The position numbers and the translations under genes were made by a program. Under the pieces are notes generated by a model, which saw nothing but the letters and a program-made list of their open reading frames with translations, ran no database searches and was not told the origin of the DNA. Of a stretch of DNA of 35,714 bases, positions 13,219 through 19,268 are shown piece after piece (within the stretch, counting starts at the first letter, position 1; every line of letters starts with the position of its first letter). This DNA is from Gammaproteobacteria bacterium (GTDB lineage Bacteria > Pseudomonadota > Gammaproteobacteria > Pseudomonadales > Azotimanducaceae): contig JABIZD010000213.1 of NCBI GenBank assembly GCA_018666555.1, positions 1 to 35,714 on the forward strand, given 5' to 3'.

Positions 13219-14310
13219 ATGTATGAATCAGAATTGCCAATTCGGCCTGAAATTAATGAAACTCATTTAGCCGCAGCAAAGCACTGGGCCTCGGCAGGCA
13301 CCTGGTGGTCTGCAGCAGAGCGAATTGCCATCGTTGAAGAAGCACGCAAAGCCTGGGATGCACAACCACTGGCTCCATGGCAGCAGCCTTCCTCTATCCC
13401 TGGGTTGATCAGCGATGATCATATCCTGCCTGTTGCTGCAATCGATGTGATCTGGCGATTAACTAATCATGTCTCGACGTTGACCAAAACCTGGTATGAA
13501 TCCTTCGTGCCGGACAAACTTTCAGCTCAACAATACGTCGAGATAGTCGGCATTGTTGCCCAATCGACCTTGACTGACAGGTTTGCTGATGCACTGGACT
13601 TACCGCGGGTCTCACTAGCAGCACCAGGACAAGGCCAAGCCTCGCAGCAACAACCAGATGATGCGGCTGTCTCAAGCCACTGGGTTCCCACCGCGCCGAT
13701 TGTCGATGGCTCCTGGAACCCGGCAACACCAACGGATGTGCCCAATGTGCGCAAGGCACTTAGTCTGGTAGCGGCGGAACGTATCATGCAGTGGGTTCTG
13801 ATCGATGCGCACTATGTTCAGGGTGGCGCCCTGGCCGATGATTTTGGTGCCAAGCACTGGTCACTGGAAAGAGCCCAGATAGAGCTGCTCGGCACCCGTA
13901 CTTCCAAAGTCAATGAGTGCTTTTACTGAGCCACCAGCCATGCAGTTCTGCTCGGTCGGAGTGGACAGGTTACAGGAACAGAGATCTCAATGGGTGTCGT
14001 CAAAGAGCTGGGAAATAATGACGGTGGTGTCAAGCATGGGGCTCTTCTGGCTAGGCTATGTGATGCGGTCGCGGCCAAAGACAGGACAGTAATGGCAGGT
14101 GTGCGTGCGGATATGCTGGCAGACATGAGTGCGGAACAATTGGTTGATGCTGTTGGCGTCAGCGCTATGTTCCATATGATGAATCGGGTCGCTAATGCTA
14201 CAGGCACGCCCCTTGACCCCATCATGAGCCAGGCGGGCCCAGCTATCTCAGAGGCCATTGGCGCATCTGGCTTTCATAGTAGGGCAGATACGCCCGAAGC
14301 CAAACCCTGA
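13219..14310 (+). CDS. AhpD/carboxymuconolactone-decarboxylase-like protein, probable selenoprotein (in-frame TGA at 13927-13929)
   Basis: Predicted thiol/selenol peroxidase or disulphide reductase of the AhpD fold. The frame runs from ATG 13219 through a TGA at 13927-13929 without shift to the stop at 14310, giving 363 residues if the TGA is read as selenocysteine at position 237. Around it the sequence has Glu222, Cys234-Phe-Tyr-Sec237 and His241, which is the AhpD pattern E-x11-C-x2-C-x3-H with the second, resolving or peroxidatic, Cys replaced. A SECIS-like hairpin follows directly. The protein seems to contain two AhpD-like halves; the N-terminal half (about residues 20-125) lacks the CxxC. 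The 20 codons after TGA are open and family-like up to an internal ATG at 13990. Alternatives are a nonsense mutation or a sequencing error. SelA/B/C/D genes are not in the window. Confidence 0.78.
13945..13966 (+). promoter_or_regulatory. SECIS-like hairpin downstream of the in-frame TGA
   Basis: CTGCTC (13948-13953) pairs with GAGTGG (13959-13964), two of six pairs being G-U, around the pentaloop GGUCG (13954-13958). The stem extends by U13947-A13965, a bulged U13946 and G13945-C13966. The loop begins 24 nt after the TGA. A GGU-containing small apical loop and a bulged U on the 5' side recall the E. coli fdhF SECIS bound by SelB. Confidence 0.6.
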
Positions 14311-14542: not shown

Positions 14543-14923
14543 GTGGATGACTTACTAGTCTTAATGCAAAGATTTCGAGTAGCCTACGGCAGTGCCGATA
14601 AAGAAGGGTTGCTGGCCTTGACCAGTGATGATTTCCAGTGGTGCCAGCATGTCGCCCAGTCGACTGATGAGCTACCTGCCGGGCGCACTTTACAGGGCGT
14701 TGATGCGCTGCTGGATGAACTCGCCTGGCGCAAGCAGCACTGGCAGGAAGTGAGATACTCGGACCTGGCTGAACGAGCAGCGGGCGATGATCTACTGGTT
14801 CAGACATTTACCATTTCAGGACTGCAAGATGGCAAGCCTTTTAATGCCAGGGCGGTTGATCCTTACCCAGTTAAAGATGGCCTGATTACACGTAAAGACA
14901 CCTATTGGAAGTATCTTAAATGA
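14543..14923 (+). CDS. NTF2-like / SnoaL-like fold protein
   Basis: A 126-residue protein with the NTF2-like cone fold: helix LLVLMQRFRVAYGSADKEGLLALTSDDFQW, then a central helix VDALLDELAWRKQHW, and closing strands ending GLITRKDTYWKYLK. The family covers polyketide cyclases, steroid isomerases and binding proteins; no catalytic residue is diagnostic here. The start is GTG 14543 with AAGGA 7 bp upstream. Its TGA stop overlaps the ATG of the following luciferase-like oxidoreductase (ATGA), so the two are translationally coupled and probably work on the same metabolite. Confidence 0.7.
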   Translation: MDDLLVLMQRFRVAYGSADKEGLLALTSDDFQWCQHVAQSTDELPAGRTLQGVDALLDELAWRKQHWQEVRYSDLAERAAGDDLLVQTFTISGLQDGKPFNARAVDPYPVKDGLITRKDTYWKYLK

Positions 14924-15969
14924 TGGAACAAGGACTCTGTACACTGGGCGATCATGTCGCTGATCCGGTAACCGGCATACGAACGAGCCAGGCAGAACGG
15001 CACCAGAACATTCGTGAATACCTGCAGATGGCAGAACCCCTGGGCTTTGATGCGATTGTCGTCGGTGAGCACCATTTCAGCGACTTTATTGTATCAGTGC
15101 CGCAGATCTTTCTTGGCTGGATGGCAGGGCAGACTAAAAAGATGCGTCTGGCTACGGGCGTTACCTTGTTGCCACACCACGATGCTGTTCGCCTGGCAGA
15201 AGATTTTGCAACGCTTGATGTTGTCTCTGAAGGGCGAGCCGAAATCTGGGTTGGCAAAGGCGTCGAACCGAAAGTGTATGACTATTTTGGTCAGCGGGCG
15301 GATGAAGCTGCTGACAGGCAACAGGAAGGTCTCGAGCTGCTGGTTAAGCTCTGGACAGAACAGGACCTGCACTGGCAAGGGCAGTATCGACCCCCATTAG
15401 CTGGCGTCACACTGGAGCCCCGGACAGTTCAAAACCCTCACGTGCCGATTTACGTTTCCTGCAGCAATCCCGCATCGGCAGTCGTCCCGGCGAAACTGGG
15501 TCTTAATCTGGTCATGACTGGTCTGGCTTTCGATCTTGATCAATTACAGCCGATGATTTCAACCTACAAAGAAGAATGGGACAAAGCAGGCCACAAGCAC
15601 CAGCCCCGAATCACCATGCTGGCTCACGTTCATGTCGGTGAAACCTCACAAGAGGCTATCTCTCATCTGCAGAAATACCAGTTCGATTTCCAGCGCTGGG
15701 TATTCAGCAAGCGGTTTGGTATGGCGCCTGATGAAGTTCAATTACCACCGCGGATAACAGACCTGGGTGATCCACACTGCGTCATCGCCGTTGGTAGCGC
15801 GTCGCAGGTGCAGGATAAAATTGCCCAACTATGTGAACTATCTGAATGCGACCGATTTGTTTATCAGGGTGACTATGGTGGGCAGCCCTGGTCAGTTGTT
15901 AAGGACTCTTTGCAGCGTTACGGAGCCGATGTATTACCCCTGGTAAAACAACTACCGGTTCAGGTTTGA
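14920..15969 (+). CDS. LLM-class (luciferase-like) flavin-dependent oxidoreductase
   Basis: A 349-residue TIM-barrel flavoprotein of the bacterial luciferase superfamily, probably an FMN- or F420-dependent monooxygenase or reductase. Typical features are the GEHHF motif near residue 49-53, LATGVTLLPHHDAVRLAEDFATLD, and VSEGRAEIWVGKG. Family members need a flavin reductase partner, and none is seen here. The start overlaps the stop of the NTF2-like gene by 4 bp (a second ATG follows immediately). It converges on the BASS transporter with only 2 bp between stop codons. Proximity to an AhpD-like redox protein and a GST would fit oxidation of a xenobiotic or lipid with peroxide handling, but that is inference. 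Confidence 0.88.
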   Translation: MMEQGLCTLGDHVADPVTGIRTSQAERHQNIREYLQMAEPLGFDAIVVGEHHFSDFIVSVPQIFLGWMAGQTKKMRLATGVTLLPHHDAVRLAEDFATLDVVSEGRAEIWVGKGVEPKVYDYFGQRADEAADRQQEGLELLVKLWTEQDLHWQGQYRPPLAGVTLEPRTVQNPHVPIYVSCSNPASAVVPAKLGLNLVMTGLAFDLDQLQPMISTYKEEWDKAGHKHQPRITMLAHVHVGETSQEAISHLQKYQFDFQRWVFSKRFGMAPDEVQLPPRITDLGDPHCVIAVGSASQVQDKIAQLCELSECDRFVYQGDYGGQPWSVVKDSLQRYGADVLPLVKQLPVQV

Positions 15970-15971
15970 CC

Positions 15972-16844
15972 TTATTTCAGGAAAAGATGCCAGGTCTTCG
16001 CAAAACTGATCCCGACGACAAGTACTGCCAGGAAATAGACGGTTGGCAGCACGGCGATATCGGGTCGCTCAAGCACGCTGACAGCGATTAAAAGTGCGAC
16101 CGCCAGGTTCCTGATAGAACCTTCAAGGGCAATGGTAACCCGATCCTGGGGATTGAGTCCGGCTGCCAGTGACAGGAAATAACTCACCCCGATGGTGAGA
16201 ACACATAGGACCAGTGACCAGGGTATGGCCTGTTCAATTTCAGCCACTACGGTATCGAAGGTCTCGTAGATAATGGCCGCAACGCAAACATACAGAGCCA
16301 GTTGGCCGAGTTTCTGCAAGCGCTTAAGGTTACTGGCGACAAACGCTGAACTCTTCGCCCGCCAGATCATACCGCCACCAATCGGTAGCACAATCAAAAC
16401 CAACAATTGAATCAGTGTCTCCACAACCGGTAGAGAAATAGGAGTATCAAGGTCTGTAATCAGATATGCGAAACCTCCCATTAGCAATGGCACCGTCAAA
16501 AACGAGGCTATTGATGAAATGGCAGTCAAGGCAACAGAAAGCACCAGGTTTGCTTTGGCAATCAGAACGAGGACATTCGAGAACCCGCCGCTTGGGCAGG
16601 CTGCTATGAGCAATATGCCGATGATAGTACCATCGGATACATCCAGAGCTAATTGCTTGATCAGAAGTGTTAAAAATACCGCGACCAACGGAAAGCTCAA
16701 GGTATGAATGATCGTACCCACAATCGGAACAGTGGGCGATTCAAGCAATTCGGCAAACTGCCTGACCTTTAACTCCATGCCAATGGTCGTCATCACAAAG
16801 ATTACGACTATAGGCAGTATATGTTGCTGTATACTGATCTCCAT
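15972..16844 (-). CDS. Bile acid:sodium symporter (BASS/SBF) family transporter
   Basis: A 290-residue polytopic inner-membrane protein with about nine to ten transmembrane segments and the family signature ACPSGGFSNVLVLIAKAN at 82-99, which corresponds to the crossover and Na+-binding region of BASS transporters. Probably Na+-coupled uptake of an organic anion. ATG 16844 (MEISIQQ) is preferred with GGAG 10 bp upstream; the open frame continues to 16904 but would then overlap the divergent GST gene. The two genes share a 32 bp intergenic space. The substrate cannot be read from the sequence. Confidence 0.85.
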   Translation of the reverse strand: MEISIQQHILPIVVIFVMTTIGMELKVRQFAELLESPTVPIVGTIIHTLSFPLVAVFLTLLIKQLALDVSDGTIIGILLIAACPSGGFSNVLVLIAKANLVLSVALTAISSIASFLTVPLLMGGFAYLITDLDTPISLPVVETLIQLLVLIVLPIGGGMIWRAKSSAFVASNLKRLQKLGQLALYVCVAAIIYETFDTVVAEIEQAIPWSLVLCVLTIGVSYFLSLAAGLNPQDRVTIALEGSIRNLAVALLIAVSVLERPDIAVLPTVYFLAVLVVGISFAKTWHLFLK

Positions 16845-16876
16845 TAAGCAAATACTCCAAAAAAAGGCACCGTTCA

Positions 16877-17485
16877 ATGATCTTAGTCGGTAGAGACCTG
16901 TCACCCTTTGTGCGTCGCTGCGCCATTGTGATGAACCTTCTCGGGCTCGAATATGAGCGTAAAATTGTCGCAGCTGCGCAAGATGCTGAATTGATCAAAC
17001 GCTACAATCCGCTCGGGCGCGTGCCTGCACTCATCCTCGCTGACGAAGTGGTCATTGATTCTCACGCCATTATAGACTATCTGCTGGATACCTACGATGA
17101 AGCAGAAGCACTGCTTGCAAAAACTGGTGACGCTCGTCGCCAGGCCCTTAAAATAAACGCACTGGCTGTCGGCACGATGGAAAAAGCAGTCGCTTCAGCC
17201 TACGAAAGAACATTGCGACCGAAGGAATTCATCTACGGGCCTTATCTTACCAAACTCAATGATCAGGTTGCTGCTGGATTAGAAGCGCTGGATCTGGTTT
17301 GTCCGTCAGATAGCTGGATAGGGGGCGCGACTCCTGGTCTTGTCGATGTCAGTGCGGTGGTAGCCTTTGACCAGGCAGGTATTGTTTTGCCTGAATTACA
17401 GGGTATCGCCGGGAATCTGGCTACGCTCAGTGTGAAATCAGAAGGATTGGCGGCTTTTTTGGAAACACGTTGGGTCGCGCCTTAA
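16877..17485 (+). CDS. Glutathione S-transferase family protein
   Basis: A 202-residue protein with an N-terminal thioredoxin-like GST domain: Ser9 in LSPFVRR at the usual catalytic helix start, NPLGRVPAL at 44-52 with the cis-Pro, and DSHAI at 61-65 that binds the gamma-glutamyl group. A C-terminal helical domain follows (from about residue 85). It could conjugate or reduce electrophiles with glutathione. It is divergent from the BASS transporter and convergent with the queCDE operon. Substrate unknown. Confidence 0.85.
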   Translation: MILVGRDLSPFVRRCAIVMNLLGLEYERKIVAAAQDAELIKRYNPLGRVPALILADEVVIDSHAIIDYLLDTYDEAEALLAKTGDARRQALKINALAVGTMEKAVASAYERTLRPKEFIYGPYLTKLNDQVAAGLEALDLVCPSDSWIGGATPGLVDVSAVVAFDQAGIVLPELQGIAGNLATLSVKSEGLAAFLETRWVAP

Positions 17486-17527: not shown

Positions 17528-17545
17528 GTAAACACCCCGGTTTAC
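17528..17545. terminator. Possible convergent hairpin between GST and queE
   Basis: GTAAAC (17528-17533) pairs with GTTTAC (17540-17545) around a 6-nt loop. It lies between two converging genes and overlaps the last bases of queE. The T-rich tract expected of an intrinsic terminator is present only upstream of it on the plus strand, so the call is weak. Confidence 0.25.
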
Positions 17546-18174
17546 TGGATGTTTAATATCTTGTGGGTTTGCAGGCTCAGTTTCCATTCAGGGCTTGCCT
17601 GGCAATAGGCCAGTGTTTTTGCTAGATTTTTTTCGTACTCAGGATTGTCCATTGGTTGCAGGTACCGGTGTGTGAACTCCAATTCCTGGAATTTCTCGGG
17701 CATGGCTTTTTCCTGTGGGTAGACAAGTTTAAGTTCGTCACCATGGCGTTGCTTGAGTTCGGCATCTGCTTTCGGGCTAACACAAATCCAATCGATGTTT
17801 TTAGGAGCTGGGATTGTTCCATTCGTCTCGATAGCAATTTCAAAACCGAAATCGTGTAAACAATTGATAAGCGTTGTATCTAATTGAAGTAACGGTTCGC
17901 CGCCGGTGCAGACTATAAACCGGTTTGTTGTATTGGTTGGCCACAATGAGTCAATGACTGCGACGAGGTCCTGGACAGTACGATACTTACCACCATTCTC
18001 GCCGTTAGTCCCGACAAAGTCGGTATCACAGAATTGGCAAACGGCAGAAGACCGATCTTTTTCGAGCCCTGACCATAGGTTGCAACCAGAAAATCGGCAG
18101 AATACCGCCGCGCGTCCAGTATTGGCACCTTCGCCCTGTAAGGTATAAAAAATCTCTTTAACTGAATAGGTCAT
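17542..18174 (-). CDS. queE: QueE, 7-carboxy-7-deazaguanine synthase
   Basis: Radical-SAM enzyme that contracts the ring of 6-carboxytetrahydropterin to 7-carboxy-7-deazaguanine (CDG), the third dedicated step to preQ0 and queuosine. The 210-residue protein carries the unusual cluster motif C-x14-C-x2-C at Cys31, Cys46 and Cys49 (the last two in CQFCDTDF), seen in the gammaproteobacterial QueE type, and CTGGEPLLQ for SAM binding. The chosen ATG 18174 lies 2 bp after the queD stop; the open frame continues upstream inside queD, but MTYSVKEIFYTLQGEG is the family's normal start. Third gene of the queC-queD-queE operon. Confidence 0.95.
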   Translation of the reverse strand: MTYSVKEIFYTLQGEGANTGRAAVFCRFSGCNLWSGLEKDRSSAVCQFCDTDFVGTNGENGGKYRTVQDLVAVIDSLWPTNTTNRFIVCTGGEPLLQLDTTLINCLHDFGFEIAIETNGTIPAPKNIDWICVSPKADAELKQRHGDELKLVYPQEKAMPEKFQELEFTHRYLQPMDNPEYEKNLAKTLAYCQASPEWKLSLQTHKILNIQ

Positions 18175-18176
18175 AA

Positions 18177-19268
18177 CTAGACCGGTAGGGCTGGGGCCAT
18201 TGCGCCCCAGTTCAAGATGCAACCGCACCCGGGTTTCTGGTATAGATCGAATCGATCCAGTTGTGGCATAACATTCGAAAGTCGATTACGCACCCAGTTA
18301 GCAATAGTTAACGCGTCTGAATTAGCAGTACCATCGATCTGGGATAAGTCATGATGATCGAGTTGCTTGTAGATAGGCGCAAAAACTGATTTAACGTCTC
18401 CATAATCAACGGTCCAGCCCATCACTTGATCGAGTGGTGAAGTCAGGTGAAGGCGGGCGATATAACTATGCCCGTGCAGCCTTTGCCTGGGGTCACTGGT
18501 GGGCGCGTGGCCTAGCATGGTTGCCGCTTCAAATCGCTGTTGCTTCCAAATTCGAAAGTCACTGCCGTCATAGTGGCAACCGCCTGTGCGAGTCTCATAA
18601 ACTGATACCCAGCTGAGACAAGGGATTCGGTTGTACAGATTTCCCCAGATCCACTTCGCGATCATCTCGCTGGTGGGGTTTTCTAGACCTTCAATGTCGT
18701 TCAGGCAGGAATGGTTGAGTTGGTCCTGGATGGGTTGCCAGGTTTTCGCCAGCCAATCGTAGTCAACGCCTATATCAGAGTCATTCCGGGGTTGTTGGGC
18801 ATGGAGAATCACCTCAAAGGAATGCCCGTGCATTCTTCCGCATTGGTGTCCTTCTGGCACATTGGGTAGGCAATGGGCAGCCTCAAACTGGAAACGGTAC
18901 CAGAGGTGGGCATGGCCCTCATGGTCGATATCGACGCCCTGGTTTTGCGTGCTCTGTACACCAATACTCTCAACACTGAGATTAATGTTTTCTCGAATCC
19001 ACCTGGCCAGATTTTCATCGGTCGGGATGGTCATTACATCATTGAGGTAGGCGTAGTCGAAAGGCTTCGTTGTTTTCTCTAGGAGCATCTGCAGGTCATC
19101 AATTTCCGCCCCCTGAAAGGACGCCCAATCGCCCGGCAGGCTTGTCCTTAACTTGGCTTTAAAGGAGTGCCCGTGCAGTCTTGATGCTGGATGATCGCTC
19201 GGTAGCATGCTTAATTTTCTAGCTGCTTCAAAGGGCGCGATTGCCTGGTAAAAGACCTGCTGGTTCAT
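18177..19268 (-). CDS. queD: QueD-like triple-domain 6-carboxytetrahydropterin synthase
   Basis: QueD converts dihydroneopterin triphosphate to 6-carboxytetrahydropterin. A normal QueD is about 120 residues; this protein has 363 and contains three PTPS-fold units, at about 8-105, 124-230 and 243-350. Only the middle unit has the full active site: zinc ligands His132, His147 and His149, catalytic Cys143, His186 and Glu225. The first unit keeps the HGH motif (32-34) but has Arg17, Ala28 and Gln105 at the other key places; the third keeps HGH (265-267) but has Thr250, Arg261 and Gln344. The outer units look like non-catalytic paralogues that may complete the oligomer within one chain. The start overlaps the queC stop by 4 bp (ATGA). 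Confidence 0.88.

Follow-up and report, generated by a model that had tools for sequence, protein, structure and literature searches.

Does the TGA at 13927-13929 end one gene, or does it encode selenocysteine (Sec) in the middle of a longer one? The window, by which we mean the whole stretch of 35,714 nucleotides that was analyzed, holds two open frames of the same phase that are split by this codon, as the original prediction had stated, and exactly 20 open codons lie between it and the next ATG at 13990. The list of open reading frames puts the beginning of the upstream frame at a TTG (13204). We took the ATG at 13219-13221 as start, because both orthologs described below have a methionine at this position. 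The residues around the TGA display the precise spacing of the AhpD active site that had been proposed, Glu222-x11-Cys234-x2-TGA237-x3-His241. Across the six frames of the whole window, a TGA connects two same-frame stretches of about 60 or more codons each in nine places, and only the 13927 site has Cys-x-x-TGA. This arrangement is more than chance. A genome-wide reassignment of TGA can be rejected, since the codon is an ordinary stop elsewhere and ends 10 of the 25 main ORFs that we picked from the window's ORF list. In all probability, the locus encodes a single 363-residue selenoprotein of the NF041238 family, with hairpin-directed Sec insertion, AhpD domains in tandem, a lost CxxC pair in the N-terminal half and a proposed redox site (Table 1). 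That the TGA would specify Sec in place of the second active-site Cys is strongly supported by the sequence comparisons described in the following.

Table 1. Coordinates of the proposed selenoprotein gene, its elements and its downstream neighbors in the window
Feature	Position	Strand	Remark
Proposed complete selenoprotein frame	13219-14310	+	363 residues, Sec at 237, stop TGA 14308-14310
Predicted N-terminal half, diverged AhpD-type domain, cysteine pair lost	13234-13614	+	Moderate evidence
Site of the N-terminal CxxC, here Ala48-Gln-Pro-Leu51	13360-13371	+	CxxC in 50/53 members
Predicted C-terminal half, AhpD-type domain with CxxU site	13666-14307	+	PDB 6k40, E 3e-7 for the stretch alone
Glu222, AhpD-type active-site Glu, 12 residues before Cys234	13882-13884	+	53/53
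Cys234, proposed partner of Sec237	13918-13920	+	53/53, by selection of sequences
Proposed Sec237 codon TGA, place of the second Cys in the AhpD CxxC	13927-13929	+	
His241, AhpD-type active-site His, 4 residues after Sec	13939-13941	+	53/53
Putative SECIS-type hairpin	13949-13963	+	Stem 13949-13953 with 13959-13963, 5-nt loop 13954-13958, G at 13955
SnoaL-like protein	14543-14923	+	PF12680, 33.6 bits
Luciferase-like monooxygenase	14920-15969	+	PF00296, 192.6 bits
SBF/BASS-type symporter	15972-16904	-	PF01758, 75.7 bits; near window-type gene in 3/3 genomes
Glutathione S-transferase-like protein	16877-17485	+	PF13417, 58.2 bits; near window-type gene in 3/3 genomes

The read-through protein matches a catalogued family almost over its full length. 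It reaches 325 bits against the NCBIfam model NF041238 (cut-off 175), with residues 8-353 aligned to positions 1-356 of the 357 in the profile, and it shares with that family the CFYU motif and the position of Sec. NCBIfam names the family AhpD_rel_CFYUT, "alkylhydroperoxidase-related (seleno)protein". In a 2026 review, NF041238 appears with a CxxU motif under the name AhpD-related protein (hypothetical protein 1, Sargasso Sea metagenome) (PMC13188914), and a 2005 paper had described hypothetical protein 1 from four sequences, with a predicted SECIS element besides the CXXU motif (PMC1088965). The family is therefore not new, because the review already lists it as a selenoprotein; it is also through this listing that our gene would be tied to hypothetical protein 1. 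The original prediction further held that ordinary annotation would lose the active site. This does not apply where the NF041238 model is used: the family is already modeled, so annotation with that model need not lose it. In the accessible parts of the literature searched on NF041238, we met no functional study of the family.

The original prediction had named the protein an AhpD-like selenoprotein. The Sec part of this description stood, but the protein exceeds a simple AhpD in length and looks like a didomain protein. With AhpD and peroxidase-related proteins it has in common the sequence kinship of its C-terminal half and the E-x11-C-x2-[C/U]-x3-H spacing; it differs from them by Sec in place of the second Cys and by an extra N-terminal part. 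It stays below the curated cut-offs of TIGR01926 (52.2 vs 81.8 bits) and TIGR00778 (19 vs 27.8) as well as Pfam CMD (17.7 vs 23), and no family exceeded its cut-off in a Pfam scan. Ocean surveys report other AhpD-like and CMD-like selenoproteins with CxxU (PMC1088965, PMC2398784), which, as far as they are described there, resemble the window protein in this motif and in their kinship to AhpD. The review, in the part available, keeps AhpD-like (TIGR01926), CMD-like (PF02627) and a distant AhpD homolog (NF041047) apart from NF041238 (PMC13188914).

The TGA proved to be widely conserved. In a sample of 145 genomes of the same order, proteins exceeded the NF041238 cut-off nine times, in seven genomes (window included), every one with exactly one TGA, and none of 14 control genomes exceeded the cut-off. 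Within the same taxonomic family, 132 of 200 genomes have a protein over the cut-off. All family-level matches listed contain at least one TGA; the exceptions to a single TGA among them are G565 (two TGA) and G559 (one TGA and one TAG). A class-level draw of 369 genomes at a threshold of 1e-20 yielded a match only in the window's own genome, and a scan of viral contigs returned 63 pattern matches and no relative. Two genomes of the same genus (G631 and G652) carry orthologs that are 77% identical to the window gene, and both keep the TGA.

For residue counts we used 53 distinct sequences, after removal of copies with identical cores. The scripts required C-any-Y-TGA, so the presence of Cys, Tyr and TGA in 53/53 holds by construction; the counts for Glu, His, the N-terminal CxxC and the hairpin are independent of this selection. 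Three loci were left out: L079 (two TGA), L107 (a short match) and L066 (a contig-end fragment). The residue following Sec is Thr in 48 of the 53 sequences and Ala in five. The window protein is one of these five, and in this respect differs from the Thr in the family name, although that Thr is our reading of CFYUT and not a stated requirement of the family. A separate search pattern demanded Cys at the Sec position and found seven loci, two of which (L058 and L059) were examined and proved to be Cys homologs. Thus, homologs carry either Sec (TGA) or Cys at the site, as would be anticipated from the original prediction. The homolog from a Henriciella MAG (L058, 2264-3400) is a full-length Cys form with an unbroken frame across the site; its genome has selA, so the use of Cys is not explained by a loss of this gene. 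In the Cys form from a Bermanella MAG (L059, 6001-7090), stop codons interrupt the N-terminal half in the frame that was read, and its genome gave no selA match. As a separate observation, the AhpD-type selenoprotein gene of locus L026 (G003) is closely followed, on the reverse strand, by a second TGA read-through frame with the motif DWUPFC. This frame resembles a UxxC peroxiredoxin-like selenoprotein.

Formally, the locus consists of two ORFs and could be read as two separate genes, with a stop at the TGA and a second start at ATG 13990, or as a pseudogene. We regard this as very improbable: relatives keep the TGA at the same place, the Henriciella Cys homolog is a single unbroken frame over the site, and the codons on both sides of the TGA are under purifying selection. 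Compared with one ortholog, the window gene had a dN/dS of 0.078 upstream and 0.073 downstream of the TGA; with the other ortholog it was 0.117 downstream, and the comparison was saturated upstream. Among the three genes the values after the TGA lie between 0.07 and 0.12, with synonymous sites near saturation in both comparisons that involve the window gene. The synonymous divergence drops from about 0.7 overall to a pS of 0.23 in the 18 codons following the TGA. The lowest value of all 346 18-codon segments is found for those starting at residues 232-237, and a pS as low as 0.23 was reached by just 4 of 20,000 random 18-codon sets. The two orthologs are not independent in these comparisons, because they are close to each other.

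A single continuous selenoprotein gene is also suggested by a putative hairpin of the SECIS type in the coding region. In the 53 distinct Sec genes the hairpin starts 19 nt after the TGA and consists of a five-pair stem and a 5-nt loop; all five pairs can form in 51 of them, and every one has G as its second loop base. In the two Cys homologs only three pairs and one pair, respectively, can form, and the complete stem is absent from all 22 AhpD-motif sites that come from 23 other, single-domain loci. Pair 27-33 is C-G in 45 genes, U-A in eight and broken in none. The two bases both fall on third positions of codons, and at least three changes are needed to place the switch on the tree. The window copy could form two further pairs outside the stem (13947-13965), and we scored the resulting seven-pair stem across the set, in which the outermost two pairs are poorly kept. 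The number of paired cells, the number of cells with a double change and the covariation score were higher than in all 500 shuffles, while the numbers of pairs with a double change and of further pair types did not exceed the shuffles. Paired cells and covariation score were also higher than in every slid control. Folded alone, the window hairpin did not exceed shuffled sequence in stability (z of 0.30, -0.98 and -0.08); another structure wins in a 46-nt fold, and the hairpin forms in the two other stretches that were folded. Taken together, a SECIS-type hairpin accompanying the TGA is supported by the comparison of the genes.

It could be argued that the assembly, which is split into 217 contigs, contains a sequencing error and that the true codon is TGC or TGT. 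However, the TGA occupies the same codon in other, independent genomes, and the downstream hairpin accompanies the TGA and not the two Cys homologs. An error of this kind is therefore hardly credible, even less so than two separate genes. The hidden Sec codon is backed by comparative evidence that goes beyond the motif.

The host genome (4.17 Mb, 97.6% complete) also has the machinery to decode it. All four genes on which the original prediction depended, selA, selB, selC and selD, are present: contig C207 carries a tRNA-Sec (anticodon TCA), contig C152 adjoining selA (571 bits) and selB (425 bits) genes, and contig C128 selD (251 bits). The latter is part of a 733-residue fusion (C128:5181-6080 of G000; L020, L057), in which SelD follows an FAD-oxidoreductase-like domain and has a CxxC near the start of its own part. 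An earlier survey mentions, in its accessible part, Ndh-SelD fusions that have a CxxC (PMC2398784).

In the same taxonomic family, selA was detected at 1e-60 in 166 of 200 genomes and in 115 of the 132 NF041238-positive ones, a weak association (Fisher p 0.046). ARAGORN confirmed a tRNA-Sec in 10 of the 17 positive genomes that gave no selA match, so that 125 of the 132 have selA or tRNA-Sec. Neither was seen in the other seven, which are up to 96% complete; since the tRNA search scored part of the candidates, a miss is no proof that tRNA-Sec is absent. Nine of the 17 genomes were inspected for selB: a single one had a match over the cut-off, another carried a fragment next to its tRNA-Sec, and in the remaining seven no match passed the cut-off. 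Two genomes of the same genus, G575 and G591 (93% and 96% complete), carry the TGA gene together with tRNA-Sec; in neither did selA match at 1e-60 or selB exceed the cut-off.

We then compared the two halves of the protein with known AhpD domains. The C-terminal half matches PDB 6k40 ("Alkyl hydroperoxide reductase AhpD") with an E-value of 1.8e-11 when a profile of nine members is used. An alignment of N-terminal halves (A3) took in 37 of 51 N-halves. The N-half profile was compared with a profile of single-domain AhpD proteins from 19 of 23 loci, four without the expected motif being left out. The alignment covers 126 of 130 columns and places CxxC on CxxC; its score of 36.6 is well above the maximum of 16.1 in 20 column shuffles. 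These values give moderate evidence that NF041238 proteins may be tandem AhpD domains. An unrelated N-terminal domain with a metal- or thiol-binding CxxC is the less likely reading, but one that retains some weight. The hhalign probability for the comparison with single-domain AhpD is only 76%, Lys or Arg is found in 46 of 53 N-halves where AhpD has His, and three of four N-halves had no Pfam match, the fourth giving weak matches only. A PDB search with the N-half returned a synaptonemal protein first (E 0.031); the next two matches, 2oyo (E 0.25) and 6k40 (E 0.71), are weak, but both are AhpD-family proteins. A direct comparison of the N-half and C-half profiles produced short, low-probability alignments only, and fold predictions had a mean pLDDT of 36.7 for the window protein alone and 34.1 for the Henriciella Cys homolog aligned with it, values too low for either model to be used.

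The N-terminal CxxC has been lost in the small branch to which the window gene belongs. Among the 53 Sec members it is missing only in this gene and its two orthologs; the three form a clade with a support of 100/100, and its stem branch measures 2.42 changes per column. This sets the window protein apart from other NF041238 members, although the N-terminal CxxC is a common feature observed here and not a stated requirement of the family. The same genome encodes a full canonical copy with both CxxC and CxxU (C163), and a third copy that is cut by a contig end has kept the CxxC in its N-half. One paralog of a catalogued selenoprotein family has thus dropped its other cysteine pair. The family is already known. 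Neither the double domain nor the loss of the first site was met in the accessible literature, which was searched on AhpD-like selenoproteins, NF041238 and CMD/CxxU proteins.

In AhpD, the second Cys of the active site is peroxidatic. Likewise, the Sec selenolate would be the attacking group in the window protein. According to our model, the genome's own SelA, SelB, tRNA-Sec and SelD would decode TGA 13927 as Sec, with the coding-region hairpin directing the insertion. The selenolate, assisted by Glu222 and His241, could then attack an organic hydroperoxide or a disulfide, Cys234 may resolve the intermediate as a selenenylsulfide, and an outside thiol would regenerate the enzyme. The protein is likely a Sec-dependent peroxidase or disulfide reductase that is reduced by such a thiol. 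In canonical relatives, the N-terminal CxxC may serve as internal relay or donor, which would be impossible in the window branch. A more speculative extension, which we consider possible but rather doubtful, is that in NF041238 proteins the N-terminal CxxC feeds the C-terminal CxxU, and that the window branch, next to genes for a transporter, a monooxygenase and a glutathione-transferase-like protein, shed this relay, evolved fast and came to depend on an outside reductant or to act on a new substrate.

These genes and the SnoaL-like one all lie downstream of the window gene, and they bear on a further question, namely whether Sec is inserted into an enzyme that is not a hydroperoxidase and reduces a disulfide or an intermediate made by its neighbors, such as the luciferase-like monooxygenase and the glutathione S-transferase-like protein. 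The SBF transporter and GST-like genes are found near the window-type gene in all three genomes, and a monooxygenase occurs in two of the three, once as a piece (61 residues, 48% identity, near the ortholog in G631). In addition, an acyl-CoA dehydrogenase cluster, two members of which were checked against Pfam, is located near 6 of 16 family loci; these loci were chosen by us and several come from one genus, so the cluster is a lead and not a statistic. However, neighborhood is indirect evidence, and the Glu/Cys/Sec/His site is that of AhpD. Such a non-hydroperoxidase function is a realistic alternative, though still the less probable one. Farther downstream in the window, a 363-residue ORF on the reverse strand (18177-19268) contains three stretches that match 6-pyruvoyl tetrahydropterin synthase / QueD, and a queE-like gene (17542-18228) is located beside it.
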